DNA of 64,000 bases, taken from Candidatus Neomarinimicrobiota bacterium (GTDB lineage: Bacteria > Fidelibacterota > Marinisomatia > Marinisomatales > TCS55). A model generated the notes under the pieces. That model saw only the letters and a program-made list of their open reading frames with translations, was not told where the DNA came from and made no database searches. Location: positions 1 to 64,000 of the forward strand of contig JABIDL010000033.1 in NCBI GenBank assembly GCA_018651745.1, read 5' to 3'. Position 1 is the first letter of the stretch. Every line of letters begins with the position of its first letter. The position numbers were made by a program, and so were the translations under genes. Shown one piece after another: positions 7,849 through 17,641 of this stretch.

Positions 7849-10173
7849 TTAATGCCGAATAAGGGTTATTTTTTCAAAAGCTGATGAACCGTCTGTTCCA
7901 TAAATAGCAATCAAATAGACCCCAGACCCAACGTAGCGACCTGAGGAATCTTTTCCATCCCAAAACGCCTGATAACCGCTAACACCACTATTCCCTTCAT
8001 CTAGTTTTTTCAGCACATTTCCATTGAATGTCATAATCATCACCGAACTGCCTTCAGTAAGTCCATCAATTACAAGAGATTTATCGCTTGGCGTATGAAA
8101 TGGGCTTGGAAAAACATCGATAGAACTGTAAGAAGATTTTTGATCTGCAAAGGGAATTTTGATTGCGTTAATTCCTTTGGATGTCGTGACATAGGCAATC
8201 CCACGTTTTTCATCAAAATCAATGTCAGTAATTTCATTCGATAAAAGAAAACTATTATCTACGTTCAAACCATTAATATCAGGCCAATAGGTTGCGCCAG
8301 ACGTAAGAACATGAATTCCTTCGGATGCAGACACAGCCCAGATATTTTCAGATGGATCAATTTTTATTCTTGAACCACTTCCGAAAGGAATATTTGGGAA
8401 ATAAGTAAATCCGCGGTACGACTCAGGATCACTGTTTGAAGCTTGAAGCCAAATCCCGGTCAAACCTACCGGAGATAAAATATAGAGGACATTGGAACTG
8501 GTGACCCCTAGCGACCAAACGGTTGTATTGGAATGACTTGAACTCACCGTAAGTGAAGCCCATTCTTTAGTCATAGGATTATCAGGATCGCCTTCGTAAG
8601 CAAGCATCGCAAGACCGCCATCATCCACGCCGGCAGGATTGATGTAATCATCTTCAAATGAGCCAATCCATAAGCGTCCCCATCCATCAAAAGCTAAGGA
8701 ATTTGGCGTAAGGCTAACATCACCCCCGCTTTCTGATGCACTAAAATTCCCCCAATTACCAGAAGCGGAACGAACTGCAATCGGATCTAAATCGTGAGTA
8801 GCATATGTATTTGCAGCCCAAAGATTTCCGTCCGCATCAAACTCAATATCTTTAACGGACATATGTTCATCGAGATTCCAATCAAGGTAGGCGGTATCAA
8901 TAAGTGTAAATGTTTCCGGATCATCAACATCCATGATTACGATCCCACCGCCATGCTGCCGCGGAAACGGATAAGTTCCACGAATAGCGAGATACAGCAT
9001 TCCATCCGGGCCTTGCTCTATATCAGCGACAAAATCCCCAAAATCAATTTTCAGCGTATCGGCAGTATAAAAATCATAATCGTGCGAAGTTTTGATGGAT
9101 TGTTTGGTATAATTTTCTACAATATTCCGCCAACCTGCAGTTTCTCGAATCGCCAACCCCGCATTTCCCCCGGCAACAATCCGACCGTCATTCAATACAC
9201 AAATCGCGGAAAAATAATTGGTAAGGGGTGCATTTGGAATCCACCTACTAAAGGTGTAAGAACTTTCATGAAATTCTGCAATGCCCTGTTCTGTTCCGGC
9301 GAAAATTTTTCCGGATGCGGAAACCAAAAGTGATGTTAAATCAAAGGATGGCGAAGCAGCAGCGTTTGAGCCATGGAAAATCGAGTTTTCGGTCACTGCC
9401 CAAAATGAACCGGTCCTGTCATTTGAAATATCTAAAATTTCATTTGATCCGGATAAGACGAGAGACAAGCCATCATTTGCGATGCGGTAAATAGATGATC
9501 CAAGCACTACAAAAACAGTATCATTCGAAAGGCTGACTGCATTCACATTGTCGGTTAAACTAGAAAAAGGCCTCCCCCACGTTGCCGGGCCTTTGAGGTT
9601 ATCTTCTACCCAATTTGCGGAAAAAAGTCCTGCGTCGGTTCCCACCAAAAGACTATCCCCTCTCACTGCAATTCCTGAAATGGAACTGATAGAAACAGGC
9701 CAATTTTTATACACATCTCGATATTCAAACCCAGAGTTTGTCAATCGAAATTCGATAATCCCAAGATCTTGATTCAATTTCATAGCGCCGAATACAACCG
9801 AATCCGAAACGGCGAAATCTAAAATTTCTGATAAATCGTAATCAAAGGTGGCGATAACTTCTTCTGCAATCGGATCAAATATATTAATAAAGCCATCCGG
9901 ACTTGATCCGCCGACCCAGATATTATTTTCCAGATCTTTTGCAATGGCGGCGAGATCCGTGCCGGAAAGCCCGTGCAGGTTTGTGAATGTTTTAAAGGAT
10001 GATGTTTCAGTTTCAAATCTGAGAATTCCACCATCCGTTGCATTAAATACAGTGTCTCTGATTTCAACCAACATGCGGACCTTGAGAGGCGATGTAAAGG
10101 AATCCCAATCACCAATTCGGACTTGGCCGCCGACCAAACCGACACACATTATCAATGCGGTAAAACGATTCAT
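7849..10173 (-). CDS. PorZ-like beta-propeller protein with T9SS C-terminal sorting domain
   Basis: 774-residue secreted protein. A short signal peptide (MNRFTALIMCVGLVGGQ) is followed by repeated propeller blades (for example LYLAIRG, LWAANTY, LWIGSFEDDY, AVSASEGIHVL), then a FlgD-like beta-sandwich sorting domain from about residue 690 (PSPFHTPSDKSLVIDGL ... AFWDGKDSSGRYVGSGVYLI). The size, the opening (IGDWDSF..., then FTNLHGLSGTDLAAI) and the two-propeller-plus-CTD layout match PorZ, the surface protein of the PorU-PorV-PorQ-PorZ attachment complex that delivers anionic LPS to cargo in Porphyromonas. A PorU homologue lies elsewhere in this window. The ATG at 10173 overlaps the stop of the M50 gene (TAATG); in-frame starts further upstream lie inside that gene. 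It could instead be a generic propeller surface protein. Confidence 0.7.
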   Translation of the reverse strand: MNRFTALIMCVGLVGGQVRIGDWDSFTSPLKVRMLVEIRDTVFNATDGGILRFETETSSFKTFTNLHGLSGTDLAAIAKDLENNIWVGGSSPDGFINIFDPIAEEVIATFDYDLSEILDFAVSDSVVFGAMKLNQDLGIIEFRLTNSGFEYRDVYKNWPVSISSISGIAVRGDSLLVGTDAGLFSANWVEDNLKGPATWGRPFSSLTDNVNAVSLSNDTVFVVLGSSIYRIANDGLSLVLSGSNEILDISNDRTGSFWAVTENSIFHGSNAAASPSFDLTSLLVSASGKIFAGTEQGIAEFHESSYTFSRWIPNAPLTNYFSAICVLNDGRIVAGGNAGLAIRETAGWRNIVENYTKQSIKTSHDYDFYTADTLKIDFGDFVADIEQGPDGMLYLAIRGTYPFPRQHGGGIVIMDVDDPETFTLIDTAYLDWNLDEHMSVKDIEFDADGNLWAANTYATHDLDPIAVRSASGNWGNFSASESGGDVSLTPNSLAFDGWGRLWIGSFEDDYINPAGVDDGGLAMLAYEGDPDNPMTKEWASLTVSSSHSNTTVWSLGVTSSNVLYILSPVGLTGIWLQASNSDPESYRGFTYFPNIPFGSGSRIKIDPSENIWAVSASEGIHVLTSGATYWPDINGLNVDNSFLLSNEITDIDFDEKRGIAYVTTSKGINAIKIPFADQKSSYSSIDVFPSPFHTPSDKSLVIDGLTEGSSVMIMTFNGNVLKKLDEGNSGVSGYQAFWDGKDSSGRYVGSGVYLIAIYGTDGSSAFEKITLIRH

Positions 10174-11051
10174 TATCCGGATTGAAACGGCGCAGGAATG
10201 AAACAAAGAATAAAAATCACGAGACAAGCATAGCCGATGAGTTTATTATTTTTAGAGAGCGGAATATGAATATCTTGAACCGGTGGATGACTGGTAGTCC
10301 TCATTAACACAATAATTAGAATCGCCCAAACCAACCAATTCAATGAAAACAAACTAAGCGGAATTAATGCAGCAAACGCAATTTTTGCGAATAGGTCGTG
10401 CTTCTTCCCCAACATCGCATAGGCGATGTGTCCACCGTCAAGTTGACCAATTGGGAGGAGATTCAGCATGGTAACTAACAAACCAATCCACCCTGCAAAT
10501 GCCACAGGATGCAGCATAATATCCTGTGAATCACCCAAGCCGGGATAAATCGCAACAGTCAGTAATTTCATGAGAATAGAATCACCCAGAATTATTCCTT
10601 CAAATTTCGGAGAAAGGTCTATCACTTCGGACATCATTAATCCAATAATCAGCGCCGGAACTGCTACGAAAAATCCTGCGATTGGCCCAGCCGCACCAAT
10701 CTGAAGCAAGGCATCTCTTTTGCGTACGGGTGATTTCATTTTAATAAAGGCGCCAAAGGTTCCAATAAATGTCGGTGCCGGAATGAAATAAGGAAGTGTC
10801 GCTTCTACATGATGTTTTTGAGAATAATAAAAATGCCCAAATTCGTGGGTTCCCAATATCAGCATTAACGTTAAAGAAAATGGAATTCCTTTCAGCAAAT
10901 CCAATGGATGAGTCCAAAAAGTGCCACCTTCCATCATTGATCCTGCCATTAATGTCGTGAATAACGTCATGAAAAACAAAACGGTATTGATTCGGGGGAT
11001 TTTTGGAATCCTCAGGATTACATCATCTTTGGTTATTTCAGGATCTGTCAT
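10173..11051 (-). CDS. Site-2 protease-like M50 metallopeptidase, integral membrane
   Basis: 292 residues with about seven hydrophobic segments. Zinc-binding HEFGH at residues 69-73 lies in a membrane helix, and the second metal-ligand region NLLPIGQLDGGH lies near residue 200. Both are diagnostic of peptidase family M50. Such proteases cut transmembrane substrates such as anti-sigma factors or remnant signal peptides. The gene begins the operon M50-porZ-small membrane protein, so a role in envelope or surface-protein maturation is possible (inference). It diverges from the 11139 gene with a palindrome between the two. Confidence 0.88.
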   Translation of the reverse strand: MTDPEITKDDVILRIPKIPRINTVLFFMTLFTTLMAGSMMEGGTFWTHPLDLLKGIPFSLTLMLILGTHEFGHFYYSQKHHVEATLPYFIPAPTFIGTFGAFIKMKSPVRKRDALLQIGAAGPIAGFFVAVPALIIGLMMSEVIDLSPKFEGIILGDSILMKLLTVAIYPGLGDSQDIMLHPVAFAGWIGLLVTMLNLLPIGQLDGGHIAYAMLGKKHDLFAKIAFAALIPLSLFSLNWLVWAILIIVLMRTTSHPPVQDIHIPLSKNNKLIGYACLVIFILCFIPAPFQSG

Positions 11052-12208: not shown

Positions 12209-12952
12209 TTAAGTGACGTTTCTTTTTTTAATGAAATAAATCGGAAGATAAGCTACAGCAAAATGCGCCAGTGCCACAAATTCCGCCGACAATATATACC
12301 ATGGCCACGGTCCTAAATAATCCAACAAGGATGGAATGTGTTCGCCAAGATCGTTCACCGGTTTGCCACGGATCCAGAAATAATTCGCGTCGAGAATAAG
12401 ATTCACAGGAATGGTTAACAGAAAAAAGGCATTTAACCCAATAAACGCTCGTTTGAGGCTTATGATAGTTGGTTTCATTTCATACACTACTGTTGCATAA
12501 ATCAAGGCAAGAATAAGTCCATTATGTCCAATCCAAAACCGGATAAAATGAAAATGCGGAAAGGCCTGCGAAATATCCGGTGTAATCGCTGCTTGAAACA
12601 TGCCGGAAAAACCCCAAAAATACAGCACTTCGTACACCCTGAAATTCTTTTTCAGCATGACAAACGGAATAATTAAGTTAGCGAACCTACAAAGATGAAA
12701 CGGAAGGTGAAGTTTTAAATCGAAGGTTCCTGCTATCAATTCCAGCCCAACCCACACGATGTAGTTTCCCATTACAAGGAAACCGATTACCGCGCCGAAA
12801 CGATCCTGTTGAGATGGATTAAGTTTTTGCTTCGCATAGATCGGAATTGCGATGAACAATACCAATGAAATGGAAAGCGCCCACAGATGCTGACTTCCAA
12901 ACATTTCGAACGAGTCAAACGTGTATAGGTATCGGTGGACGGACTCGCGCAC
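12209..12952 (-). CDS. YwaF-like / TIGR02206-type integral membrane protein
   Basis: 247 residues with about seven transmembrane segments. The conserved spots of the TIGR02206 family are visible: FGSQHLWAL at the N-terminus, LPFHLCRFANL in the third helix and FWIGHNGLI further on. This is a membrane family of unknown biochemical role found mostly in Firmicutes and FCB bacteria. The start is a GTG at 12952, six bases after the stop of the 63-codon upstream gene, so it is probably cotranscribed. Confidence 0.75.
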   Translation of the reverse strand: MRESVHRYLYTFDSFEMFGSQHLWALSISLVLFIAIPIYAKQKLNPSQQDRFGAVIGFLVMGNYIVWVGLELIAGTFDLKLHLPFHLCRFANLIIPFVMLKKNFRVYEVLYFWGFSGMFQAAITPDISQAFPHFHFIRFWIGHNGLILALIYATVVYEMKPTIISLKRAFIGLNAFFLLTIPVNLILDANYFWIRGKPVNDLGEHIPSLLDYLGPWPWYILSAEFVALAHFAVAYLPIYFIKKRNVT

Positions 12953-13153: not shown

Positions 13154-13495
13154 TTAATCCTTGGCCTTGGCTTTTTTCTTGGCGGCGGGTTTCTTTTTTG
13201 TAGCCGGTTTTTTCTTAGCAGGTGCTTTCTTTGCCGGTTTCTTTTTGGGAGTTGTCTTTTTGGCTACAGATTTCTTGGTTGCTGTTTTCTTTGCGGTTGG
13301 TTTCTTCTTAGTTACCGGTTTTTTCTTTGTCGCTGTTTTTTTCTTGGGAGCTTCCTCTGTTGCAACCGGTTCTTCAACTTCAACCGGTTTGGGTGCAGCT
13401 GACTTCGCTTTCGATAATAATGCCTGAGATTTTAATCGCATCCGTTCTTTATTTTTTCGATGGCGGATGTTGACCATTTTCTTTTTCTTATTCAT
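13154..13495 (-). CDS. Lys/Ala-rich histone H1-like protein
   Basis: 113 residues. A basic N-terminal segment (MVNIRHRKNKERMRLKSQAL) is followed by a short acidic linker (EVEEPVATEEAP) and a C-terminal tail of about 65 residues made almost wholly of Lys, Ala, Pro and Thr in KKKPA/AKK-type repeats. Such tails resemble eukaryotic histone H1 and bacterial H1-like DNA-binding proteins (Hc1, AlgP). By analogy it would bind DNA or RNA without sequence specificity. It has a good AAAGGAA site before the ATG. The long frames on the opposite strand here are by-products of the Lys-rich codons. Function by composition only. Confidence 0.7.
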   Translation of the reverse strand: MNKKKKMVNIRHRKNKERMRLKSQALLSKAKSAAPKPVEVEEPVATEEAPKKKTATKKKPVTKKKPTAKKTATKKSVAKKTTPKKKPAKKAPAKKKPATKKKPAAKKKAKAKD

Positions 13496-13570: not shown

Positions 13571-14134
13571 TCAATCCACAATTAATCCCCGCACAATAAA
13601 TCTGTCTCTGGCTTTTCCTACATGATTAAACGGATAACAGGTAATGAGGGTAATGCAGTCATTTTCTGTTTCATCAATCCAGTAAATATCATCGCCGAAG
13701 ACTGGGCGGACTTCGCTCACAGTGAATGATTGAGTTGCAAATGTAGATTCAAGCTCAATCGTGTCGCCGATTTTAATGTCTTTTAGCGGACGAAAAAAAC
13801 TATCGCGGTGCCCAGCAATGACGATATTGCCACTACTGCCGGGTCGAGACGAGTTTGAAAGATGCCCCGGTCCAAACGCCAGTGCTTCACCGGAGACACC
13901 GCCCAATACTACATTCTCAATTCCAACTGAATTTATGGTCAATTTTCCCACCGGATGCGTGTCCGCCCATTCCCATGGATTCTGCACAGTCTTTTCAGAT
14001 TTTGTCCGTTCCCATGCCTTTTCCAGCAATATCGAGGCCAATTTCCCCTTTCCATAGTAATAGGTGGATTTCCCGACCAAAATAAATCCGAGTAAAATCA
14101 GTAAAGTTGGAACAAAACGATACAGTTTTGTCAT
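13571..14134 (-). CDS. Sortase (class D-like) paired with its LPQTG substrate
   Basis: 187 residues: one N-terminal transmembrane anchor (about 4-24), then a sortase beta-barrel. Catalytic His109 (NIVIAGHRDSFF), Cys166 in the TLITC motif (CITLITCYPF) and Arg178 (RDRFIVRG) are all present. Sortases cleave LPXTG-type signals and join the new C-terminus to an acceptor amine. The ATG at 14134 overlaps the stop codon of the preceding VIT/vWA gene (ATGA), whose product ends in an LPQTG signal. This gene pair matches the sortase/target pair annotated as TIGR03784/TIGR03788 in marine proteobacteria. In-frame starts upstream fall inside the substrate gene and are rejected. Confidence 0.9.
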   Translation of the reverse strand: MTKLYRFVPTLLILLGFILVGKSTYYYGKGKLASILLEKAWERTKSEKTVQNPWEWADTHPVGKLTINSVGIENVVLGGVSGEALAFGPGHLSNSSRPGSSGNIVIAGHRDSFFRPLKDIKIGDTIELESTFATQSFTVSEVRPVFGDDIYWIDETENDCITLITCYPFNHVGKARDRFIVRGLIVD

Positions 14135-16239
14135 TTTCTCGTCCTCTCTACAAACATCCGCGTTAGCGCGAAACCTGTTCCAATCAGAACACATCCGATC
14201 AAAATCATTAGCGGAAAGGATGTTCCGGTCTGCGGTAACGTTATATTCGATACCTTTTGGATGAGGTTCTGCTGACCGTTGGAATCGGCACTTTTCATCA
14301 CAACCATCTTTGCACTGCCGAAGACAGCATCGTAATTCCAACCTTTAGGAAGATCCGTCGGAATCGAAAGCGAGGCTAACTGCCCACCCGGATTCATAAT
14401 CCTGTTTTCTACCGCCACGAAAGAGGTGAATTTTGTAACGAGATTATGATCGAGCGCGAGTTGGATGATATTATCCTTCACATCTTTATTCCCGAGACGA
14501 TAGTCATCCATCAAGTCACCGATGTTGCGTCTTGCCCAAATCGACGGGATACCCGGATCATTTTTGGTGTTTTCAAGGTCTAGAGGAAGATCCATCCGAA
14601 AATATCCCGCCGGTGTCTTTCCGGTCAGCACAGCAGTTTCATTTTTCAAACCGCTGGTTTTCCCGAATATCAGCATCGGCTCATCATGGAAAAGGTCTCG
14701 AATTGGATTTGGATGAAAATCTACGTTGCCGTCAATCTTGAGGTTCATGTTTGTGAGCACCGGCTTTTCAATCCGCCTTAGAAGCGTGTTCATTTTCCCC
14801 TCTACCTGAGATGTAGATGATATGTGTGTAAATGTTCCCTTCCCAATCTTCGCTGATTTTCTTAGCAAAAACGAGTTTGGCGAAGATCCGATTCCTATGG
14901 GAAAAAGACGAGAATTTCCGAGATAATTCTTGATATCGGATAAAATTGCATTCTCATTTCCGACATCGCCATCCGTGAGAAACATGATCATTCGCACCGC
15001 GCTGGGATCGGACACTTCTTTCAATGCTGCTTTTAGTGCAGGCCGCACGTTCGTTCCACCCGAAGCAGTAAAATATTTGACATGCTTTACCGCATCACGT
15101 TTGTTAGCCCATGAAGCGGGAACTGGCGCTAGACTGAACTTTTGGAAATGGTTGTTAAAACGAATGATGTTAAAATGATCTTGATTGCCCAAAGATTCAA
15201 TCGCTTTCACCAAAACCTTTTTCGCCTGGCGTATTGATTCACCGCTCATCGAACCTGAAACATCCAGAACATAGATCATTTCCTTTGGAAGGTTTTCTTC
15301 CGGTACATCCACAGGCGGAACTGCCATCAGCATGAAATAATCGTCATTCCCTTTTTTCGCTGAAAAGAGCGCTGCTTTCGGTTCGCTTCCTTGCGCAATC
15401 TTGTATTCCAAAACAAAATCCCGATTGGGAATTTCATCCGAATTTTTAAGAACAATAAAACGCGAGCCGGTTCCAGTGTGAATGATGTCCACTTCGTGGG
15501 AAACGGAAAACACCGTTTCCAGTTCAAGACCTGTTTCCAATTCAACTGAAAGGCTTACCGTGTTTCCGCTGCGCTTTTCGTCCTTCACCACCGGCGGCGT
15601 GATGCGGCTGGCATCCGGTACTTTGTCCGTGTCCACGGACCAGCCTGAGCCTGAAAATCCCGGAATCGTATCTCCCGGAATGTATCTCGGGCCTACCACC
15701 ATCGGGAACCGAAGGTGGAAAGTGCCGGAAGAGTAATCCACGTGGTCCACGTACTGCAGGCGAACTATTATCGTGTCGCCGGGCAAAATATTGGCTACGG
15801 AATTGGTAAAGATATTCGGCCGTTCCTGTTCGGTGAGGCTAGTGCGCCTCCCTTCCTTTTTCGCTTGTTCGTACTTCTTTTTCGCTTCTTTCCGCTCGGC
15901 GACTTCGCTCTGGATCAGCCGGTCGTTGACCAGCATCTGCATGTCCGAGACAGCCGCCTGATCCGGAAGCGGAAAAACATAGATCGCCTCGATCGGCGCA
16001 TCGTTATCGTTGGTGAATACCTGATCCACCGTGGCGGTGGCGACCATACCGCTTATCTTTATCTTTACGCGAGTATCGAGCTTTGGCATTTCATAATAGG
16101 CACCGGGTTCTTCTGCCGCAATCAGCAGCATTCCTTCCTTTACATCATTCAGGTTAATCGGGATTTTGTCGCTTGTGTTCGAAAAACCGAACGATACAAA
16201 ACACATGGTTAAGACAAAACGAGGTAACAATCCGTTCAT
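14131..16239 (-). CDS. VIT/vWA-domain surface protein with C-terminal LPQTG sorting signal (sortase target)
   Basis: 702 residues. In order: signal peptide (1-20), VIT domain (about 50-185, including VFPLPDQAAV), von Willebrand A domain (about 320-500) with an intact metal site (DVSGS at 326-330, SGGTN, LTDGD), a beta-rich linker, and a C-terminal sorting signal: LPQTG at 668-672, a hydrophobic helix, then the basic tail RMFVERTRK. The layout equals the marine proteobacterial sortase target family (TIGR03788), related to inter-alpha-trypsin inhibitor heavy chains. It is exported, anchored by the sortase encoded next to it, and probably binds a protein ligand through the metal site. Good AAAGGAAC ribosome-binding site. 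The substrate-sortase assignment is strong; the acceptor in a diderm is unknown. Confidence 0.9.
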   Translation of the reverse strand: MNGLLPRFVLTMCFVSFGFSNTSDKIPINLNDVKEGMLLIAAEEPGAYYEMPKLDTRVKIKISGMVATATVDQVFTNDNDAPIEAIYVFPLPDQAAVSDMQMLVNDRLIQSEVAERKEAKKKYEQAKKEGRRTSLTEQERPNIFTNSVANILPGDTIIVRLQYVDHVDYSSGTFHLRFPMVVGPRYIPGDTIPGFSGSGWSVDTDKVPDASRITPPVVKDEKRSGNTVSLSVELETGLELETVFSVSHEVDIIHTGTGSRFIVLKNSDEIPNRDFVLEYKIAQGSEPKAALFSAKKGNDDYFMLMAVPPVDVPEENLPKEMIYVLDVSGSMSGESIRQAKKVLVKAIESLGNQDHFNIIRFNNHFQKFSLAPVPASWANKRDAVKHVKYFTASGGTNVRPALKAALKEVSDPSAVRMIMFLTDGDVGNENAILSDIKNYLGNSRLFPIGIGSSPNSFLLRKSAKIGKGTFTHISSTSQVEGKMNTLLRRIEKPVLTNMNLKIDGNVDFHPNPIRDLFHDEPMLIFGKTSGLKNETAVLTGKTPAGYFRMDLPLDLENTKNDPGIPSIWARRNIGDLMDDYRLGNKDVKDNIIQLALDHNLVTKFTSFVAVENRIMNPGGQLASLSIPTDLPKGWNYDAVFGSAKMVVMKSADSNGQQNLIQKVSNITLPQTGTSFPLMILIGCVLIGTGFALTRMFVERTRK

Positions 16240-16400
16240 AGTGAGTTCCTTTCTCTCTTTAACGAAGAAAGCCGAAACACTGCTATGCAGCAGTACCTCG
16301 GCCTCCTCTTTTTACTGATTAGGTTTGCTTACAACCTATTGTGGACTGCTACAATGGATTGGGTGGAAAGTTCCAACTAAACCACACTCTTACATATTTT
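16240..16400 (-). promoter_or_regulatory. Hairpin-rich leader upstream of the sortase operon
   Basis: Part of the gene-free stretch 16240-16684. The region just before the VIT/vWA start contains a two-part stem at 16271-16302 (GCCGA, AAC, ACTGCT, loop ATGC, AGCAGT, ACC, TCGGC) and two smaller hairpins about 20-60 bases further upstream (TAGGTT...AACCTA and ATTGT...ACAAT). In the minus-strand transcript these would fold in series ahead of the start codon. The first stem read on the plus strand is followed by CTCCTCTTTTT and could also stop plus-strand transcription. No known riboswitch class is recognised. Confidence 0.35.
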
Positions 16401-16565
16401 TTGAATAATTAATTGAAACTTTTTTATTGATGTATAGCATTGATTCATAAAAAAGGATAATTACTATGCCTTATCAAAAAATAATAAATGGTTCATGACA
16501 ATGGAAAGTTAATTAGAAATCTCTCAGCATACTTTAAAGAATGCGGCGAGCGAGAATATGAGTTT

Positions 16566-16603
16566 GGCTTTTCCTACATGATTAAACGGATAACAAGTGA
16601 TGA
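16566..16603 (-). pseudogene. Decayed sortase fragment (active-site Cys region)
   Basis: Positions 16566-16595 are identical over 30 bases to 13610-13639 inside the intact sortase gene, and the next eight bases match at six. On the minus strand the fragment still reads ITCYPFNHVGKA, the segment around the sortase catalytic Cys. Both sides soon diverge into stops and unrelated sequence. It is best read as the remnant of a second sortase copy, or of a duplication, in the otherwise gene-free stretch 16240-16684. The remainder of that stretch (about 16400-16560) is AT-rich with nothing recognised. Confidence 0.6.
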
Positions 16604-16684
16604 TTCTGGATCAATAATTGCCAAGGTTTTTTAAGAATCGCAATATCAATACTTTCAGGTTTTTATAATTAATAGGTTGCCAGG

Positions 16685-17467: not shown

Positions 17468-17549
17468 AATGATCTTTCTTGCGCATTAGCGCTTATTAAG
17501 GCTTACAGATGAGCTCAACCTTCATGACAGTGAGGGAACTCAAATCTAG

Positions 17550-17641
17550 CGGGAACGCGTGAGAATCGAACTCACCGGACTTGTCACCAAGTCCCAGCGG
17601 TTTTGAAGACCGCGGCCGGCACCAGCCTTGCAATCATTCCC
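17550..17641 (-). tRNA. selC: tRNA-Sec (anticodon UCA, reads UGA)
   Basis: About 92 nt. On the minus strand it folds as a selenocysteine tRNA: acceptor GGGAATG pairing with the 3' strand ending CGTTCCC (one G-T pair), discriminator G, anticodon stem GCGGT/ACCGC with loop CTTCAAA (anticodon TCA), a long variable arm (GGACTTG, loop GTGA, CAAGTCC) and a perfect T-arm (GTGAG TTCGATT CTCAC). The long extra arm, long acceptor side, TCA anticodon and G73 are the defining selC features. CCA is not encoded. It implies that the organism makes selenoproteins and needs SelA, SelB and SelD elsewhere in the genome. No in-frame UGA selenoprotein was recognised in this window. Confidence 0.93.

Follow-up and report, generated by a model that had tools for sequence, protein, structure and literature searches.

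The genome of a marine Candidatus Neomarinimicrobiota bacterium carries a class GN-type sortase and a single VIT/vWA target protein in two overlapping genes, preceded by a conserved promoter-like element and a structured leader RNA. The window, by which we mean the whole stretch of 64,000 nucleotides that was analysed, comprises positions 1–64,000 of contig JABIDL010000033.1 (GCA_018651745.1). We propose that the locus is a self-contained anchoring cassette, in which the sortase would cut the LPQTG motif of the target between T and G and transfer the protein to the meso-diaminopimelate (mDAP) of peptidoglycan, with the leader setting the level of expression. We give this model as a whole a probability of roughly 60%. 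Sortase-target pairs of this kind were known before: NCBI annotation includes them routinely, and a dedicated pair had been described by 2011 (Haft and Varghese, PMC3237569). The new points are the host phylum, the divergent clade to which the pair belongs, and a promoter and leader RNA that are conserved across the cassettes of the phylum.

The sortase and its VIT/vWA target

The sortase gene is located at 13571–14134 on the minus strand and encodes 187 aa. The mechanical open reading frame spans 13571–14341, and the start is most likely the ATG at 14134, which overlaps the stop codon of the target gene (14131–14133) as ATGA. The overlap claimed in the initial annotation can thus be read directly in the sequence. 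The enzyme scores 161.3 bits against TIGR03784, a narrow margin over the cut-off of 158.25 (E = 1.7e-47), and 93.2 bits against PF04203. An N-terminal membrane helix (helical at about residues 2–47) is followed by the sortase beta barrel. The best PDB matches of the AlphaFold model (pLDDT 82) are sortases, with 4d70 as the best Foldseek match.

The codons of the catalytic residues lie on the minus strand at 13808–13810 (His109), 13637–13639 (Cys166, within TLITCYPF) and 13601–13603 (Arg178). All three residues are invariant in 11 homologues, and their earlier numbering is exact. The solved structures nearest to the sortase are the class D enzymes 2ln7 of B. anthracis and 4d70 of C. perfringens, which have the same His/Cys/Arg centre. 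The description of the enzyme as class D-like therefore holds as a resemblance but fails as membership, since it scores below the class D cut-offs (98.4 vs 165 bits for NF033746, 111.3 vs 140 bits for NF058671). The cut-offs of classes C, E and F are missed as well (57.8, 57.1 and 21.6 bits vs 160, 160 and 166). Judged by sequence, the enzyme belongs to class GN and resembles class D without being a member.

We also notice a 39-nt stretch upstream of the operon (16565–16603, minus strand), identical at 37 of 39 positions to the part of the sortase gene (13609–13647, minus strand) coding for ITCYPFNHVGKA, which surrounds the catalytic Cys. This upstream copy also occurs in the congener, with 36/39 positions identical to the copy in the window and 29/39 to its own sortase gene. 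The pattern suggests an old duplication of a fragment with later homogenisation.

The target gene, at 14131–16239 on the minus strand, encodes 702 aa and scores 656.6 bits against TIGR03788 (cut-off 551.65; E = 3.6e-197). With the E-values given here for the sortase and the target, neither match is due to chance, and both proteins pass the two curated NCBIfam equivalog models, TIGR03784 and TIGR03788, that the initial annotation had named for the pair. Features of TIGR03788 members, namely VIT and vWA domains, a signal peptide and an LPXTG-like tail, are all found in the target: VIT is matched by PF08487 (122.8 bits), vWA by PF13768 (65.1 bits) and PF00092 (47.5 bits), and the N-terminus looks like a signal peptide, as judged by eye. 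The structural model resembles inter-alpha-inhibitor heavy chain 1 (6fpy). The MIDAS motif DVSGS (residues 326–330; 15250–15264, minus strand) is completed by T396 and D423. D326, S328, S330, T396 and D423 are invariant across 12 homologues, which bears out the earlier reading of a complete metal site.

The sorting signal

The LPQTG motif (residues 668–672; 14224–14238, minus strand) is followed by a hydrophobic helix and ends in RTRK at the C-terminus, as had been read from the sequence. The tail scores 16.8 bits against TIGR01167 (cut-off 15.9). In the host genome, whose assembly is 95.8% complete, we found no other LPXTG anchor over the TIGR01167 cut-off and no second sortase at E<=1. Three weak TIGR01167 matches (E 0.26–0.76) were rejected, as they lack model positions 1–8, where the motif lies. 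Several unrelated LPXTG proteins, which according to the initial annotation would point to a general sortase, were looked for and not found in this genome; its claim of a dedicated pair agrees with one sortase and one LPXTG signal.

Of 18 family members, some from this phylum and others from proteobacteria, most have LPQTAT or LPKTAT; LPQTGT is found in the window and in Novosphingobium. The sorting motif of the family is thus LP[QK]TAT-like rather than LPXTG, with LPQTG as a variant, so the LPXTG motif of the initial annotation is correct for the window and less so for the family. LP[QK]TAT is the class D pattern.

The host envelope and the surroundings of the cassette

The host genome encodes BamA (461 bits, cut-off 297) and SprA of the type IX secretion system (T9SS; 730.8 bits, cut-off 200). 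On this basis the host is a diderm, as had been supposed. MurE is encoded within the window and carries the DNPR motif, which is typical of mDAP-adding MurE enzymes and therefore indicates mDAP-type peptidoglycan. Taken from the gene content, the envelope is most probably that of a diderm with mDAP peptidoglycan.

The window contains several further features, all on the minus strand. A PorZ-like protein with a T9SS-type C-terminal domain (7849–10227; NF052228 175.9 bits, below the cut-off of 260) is encoded about 3 kb from the sortase. A tRNA-Sec gene (17549–17641; ARAGORN and Rfam RF01852) lies two genes upstream of the cassette, and selenoproteins are therefore likely in this genome. A TPP riboswitch is found at 2491–2594 (RF00059, 59.8 bits). 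Just downstream of the sortase, 13154–13495 encodes a protein of 113 aa whose long tail is rich in K/A/P/T and resembles histone H1; a search found no family match for this protein. A TMEM164-related integral membrane acyltransferase (TIGR02206, 151.2 vs 75 bits) is located at 12209–12952.

A conserved promoter-like element and leader RNA

A promoter-like element and an RNA leader, both conserved, precede the target gene and were missed by the initial annotation. The element, GGAACT-N-TGTAGCAG (16346–16374, minus strand), is kept in 6/6 cassettes of the phylum. All six have the pattern GGAAC-N16/17-TGTAnnA at −135 to −146 before the ATG, which occurs in 0.06% of shuffled 250-nt upstream regions. 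Many extracytoplasmic-function sigma factors have GGAAC as their −35 sequence. A regulon sharing this promoter was rejected, because the pattern occurs twice in the host genome against three control matches.

Between this element and the target ATG lie, on the minus strand, a small hairpin P1 (16320–16338), a hairpin P2 of about 20 pairs (16256–16310) and a Shine-Dalgarno-like AAAGGA (16247–16252), of which AAGG is invariant in six leaders. P2 is kept in sequence and structure in all six cassettes. Seven of its 20 pairs are changed on both sides with the pairing kept, and 98.3% of cells pair. Its covariation score is 0.533, compared with 0.298 ± 0.039 in shuffles, and 0 of 500 shuffles reach it. 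Sliding the partners by 1–3 columns lowers the pairing to 43–60%. The fold z-score of the hairpin is −4.5.

An RNA model of the leader (R1) finds one strong match in the host genome (66.1 bits; the next scores 16.3). It scores 59–75 bits, once each, in precisely those six genomes whose target exceeds the cut-off; as R1 was built from these six genomes, their high scores are by construction, and the information lies in the absence elsewhere. In the other genomes of the phylum R1 reaches <=28 bits, and the matches of 25–28 bits resemble generic hairpins. With a single strong match per cassette genome and none elsewhere in the phylum, an RNA regulon was rejected. Rfam yields only the tRNA-Sec and the TPP riboswitch in the window and nothing in four other loci scanned, so the hairpin matches no Rfam family and a known riboswitch was rejected. 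Two exact matches of viral contigs to the 5′ arm of the leader lie inside phage genes, have no RNA-model score and were attributed to chance. We found no description of such a promoter and folded leader in the sources searched.

The evidence for P1 is weaker; it folds in the window, L041, L043 and L044. In L042 (11816–11920) and L045 (3283–3393), two pairings are open to its 5′ arm, one with the 3′ arm of P1 and one with the Shine-Dalgarno region, as in a translational switch. The alternative pairing is missing in the window, L041 and L044, and we do not propose a conserved switch.

Could the hairpin be no more than an intrinsic terminator, ending transcription of the upstream gene or serving as a simple attenuator? 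In L042, L043 and L045 it does run into 7–8 U. Against this, the hairpin lies downstream of the conserved promoter-like element and ahead of the start codon, has no Rfam match, and keeps the sequence of its outer stem across three families, a conservation that terminators do not need. The U run is interrupted in both the window and L041 (UUUCUUCGUU) with the pairing retained, which makes a plain terminator unlikely in the window, where a terminator scan detected nothing at the hairpin. We consider the terminator reading rather doubtful overall. The leader may act as a regulated attenuator.

Proposed anchoring mechanism and acceptor

In the anchoring model, an extracytoplasmic-sigma-like promoter would drive a structured leader RNA followed by a bicistronic mRNA, and the leader hairpin would set the output of the cassette as a protein-binding site, an attenuator or an mRNA stabiliser. 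Sec would export the VIT/vWA protein by its signal peptide, and the C-terminal helix and basic tail would hold it in the inner membrane. There the membrane-bound sortase, made from the overlapping second gene, is predicted to cut between T and G of LPQTG through Cys166, forming a thioacyl intermediate. The VIT/vWA protein would then be passed to an amino nucleophile; the likeliest candidate is the side-chain amine of meso-diaminopimelate, carried by lipid II or peptidoglycan. The metal-binding vWA module would thus become covalently fixed in the periplasm-facing wall, as an enzyme-made counterpart of Braun's lipoprotein. Enzyme, sorting signal and pairing are established by the sequence, which makes cleavage of the target tail a well-supported prediction; the acceptor, the cellular location and the role of the leader we infer.

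The choice of mDAP is based on the class D-like structures, the LPQTG/LPQTAT tail, the mDAP-type MurE and OmpA-domain neighbours of related pairs. The preferred motif of C. perfringens SrtD is precisely LPQTGS, and its operon includes a gene for an LPQTGS protein (PMC4498605). B. anthracis SrtC/D cuts LPNTA between T and A and uses m-diaminopimelate as the nucleophile (PMC3297441), which matches the LP[QK]TAT consensus of the class GN family. In two gammaproteobacteria, a gene with an OmpA domain (PF00691) lies directly upstream of the class GN pair (L051 3023–3847, L052 3087–3830). It is a possible functional partner, and its peptidoglycan-binding fold hints at peptidoglycan. As the class D models are missed, the acceptor and specificity may differ from those of class D. 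Family members whose motifs depart from LPXT (IPQGAT, LPQGGT) count against wall anchoring. Among open-licence papers, we found no assay of any class GN sortase.

The main rival to wall anchoring is a surface acceptor: the same cleavage would join the VIT/vWA protein to an amine of the outer membrane or cell surface (a lipid, LPS or an outer membrane protein), and the protein would be displayed outside. In other species, T9SS attaches its cargo to LPS at the surface. In this phylum, VIT/vWA homologues (L019, L020, L022, L024 and L026) have C-terminal T9SS type A sorting domains that exceed the curated cut-off, and in a Bacteroidota homologue the module is joined to a TonB-dependent receptor, so that the module tends toward the surface; these tails and the receptor domain point to the outer surface and against the wall model. 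T9SS is also present in the host, with SprA in the genome and the PorZ-like protein in the window. On the other hand, the T9SS-tailed homologues are distant (20–28% identity), and the substrate is retained by its C-terminal helix and basic tail at the inner membrane, where the sortase is located, so a carrier would be needed for a surface route. For these reasons we hold a surface acceptor to be unlikely.

It is more improbable still that the sortase is mainly a processing protease, with water resolving the intermediate and the VIT/vWA protein released into the periplasm. Such a role would agree with the little or no positive charge of some tails (RKLSYV in L043, RRILYV in L044) and with the lack of a dedicated acceptor gene common to the cassettes, since outside the window's genus the loci have only the two cassette genes in common. 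Yet every residue of the transpeptidase centre is retained, and amines are the acceptors of the known sortases with this fold (PMC4498605, PMC3297441).

Distribution and phylogeny in the phylum

The sortase is found in 5 of 245 Neomarinimicrobiota genomes, three of these sortases scoring below the TIGR03784 cut-off, and a target over the cut-off is found in 6 of 245. In the sixth genome, the contig (5.7 kb) ends close to the target and thereby excludes the sortase. The named close relatives of the host are all Candidatus Neomarinimicrobiota. The initial annotation had noted that such pairs were first annotated in marine proteobacteria; that origin applies to the annotation of the family, and the host here is no proteobacterium.

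In both trees, the Neomarinimicrobiota proteins form one clade with support of 100/100, on a long branch from the gammaproteobacterial relatives; the root is uncertain because of the long outgroup branch. In the congener G081, the upstream neighbours (DUF481, SPOR, TPR, MiaB and M23) are syntenic and the cassette occupies the same place; in the congener G082, the DUF481 gene is missing along with the cassette. Binning contamination, by which proteobacterial DNA would sit in the wrong genome, might be suspected from the marine proteobacterial annotation of the family and the rarity of the cassette in the phylum, but is refuted for practical purposes by this synteny, the single clade and the presence of the cassette in four independent metagenome-assembled genomes named Neomarinimicrobiota.

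By taxonomy G110 is a member of the window's family, but the trees contradict this and place it with the f13 genomes, with support of 98/97 in the target tree and 97/91 in the sortase tree; its leader RNA, too, is closer to the f13 leaders than to that of the window. The gene trees and the leader likeness together suggest that promoter, leader and genes were transferred as a unit inside the phylum. We tentatively go one step further, at somewhat less than even odds: the leader could be a dedicated, hitherto undescribed cis-regulatory RNA. It would control the cassette by responding to an envelope or ionic signal, or by binding a regulator protein, and would be exchanged inside the phylum as a single unit with the sortase and target. 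The window and its congener have nearly identical promoters and leaders, whereas the 170 nt further upstream are hardly alignable.

As a separate observation, about 130 nt of non-coding sequence after the DUF481 gene (about 16554–16684, minus strand) are nearly identical between the congeners, and the next 170 nt are unalignable. No sortase relatives were found in viral contigs, and the matches to the sortase in the phage database are partial sortases of gut phages.

Comparison with known sorting systems

The pair shares with the class GN system (TIGR03784 and TIGR03788) scores over both cut-offs, adjacent and overlapping genes, one pair per genome and a VIT/vWA target with an LPXTG-like tail. 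It differs in its host phylum, so that the proteobacterial part of the family name, which is a name and no mechanistic criterion, does not apply; in its divergent clade near the TIGR03784 cut-off; and in its promoter-like element and leader RNA, which are absent from the proteobacterial cassettes examined (RNA model in six, promoter pattern in nine). With class D sortases it has in common the nearest structures and the LPQTGS/LPNTA preference, matching LPQTG and LP[QK]TAT here; it differs from them in the diderm envelope, the VIT/vWA substrate and the lack of a link to sporulation, besides the missed cut-offs.

T9SS with PorU/PorZ is likewise a Gram-negative system, present in the host genome, that cleaves a C-terminal signal, re-attaches surface proteins and handles VIT/vWA homologues within this phylum. 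PorU, however, is an unrelated cysteine peptidase at the outer membrane, and its signal is a folded domain instead of a short motif. GlyGly-CTERM/rhombosortase and PEP-CTERM/exosortase follow the same tripartite tail logic, but their enzymes and motifs are unrelated to the sortase pair. In other bacteria, the VIT/vWA family has GlyGly-CTERM, PEP-CTERM or LPXTG tails (Haft and Varghese, PMC3237569), to which the T9SS tail would add a further type. The Bacteroidota fusion of VIT, vWA and TonB-dependent receptor is encoded by a plasmid gene of Pontibacter sp. G13 (L071, 3372–8066) that is annotated merely as SusC/RagA.

Implications

In 2023 the role of such pairs was still called unknown and their distribution limited to halotolerant proteobacteria (PMC10581121), and we found no open-licence paper on sortases in Neomarinimicrobiota. 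The system now extends beyond proteobacteria, and within one phylum the same VIT/vWA module is served by two unrelated sorting systems, sortase or T9SS. A class D-like enzyme, an LPQTG/LPQTAT tail and an mDAP wall narrow the attachment site of the one substrate of diderm sortases to a testable prediction, namely a C-terminal threonine linked to a muropeptide. The single-copy, covarying leader offers a starting point for finding out under which conditions the cassette comes into use.
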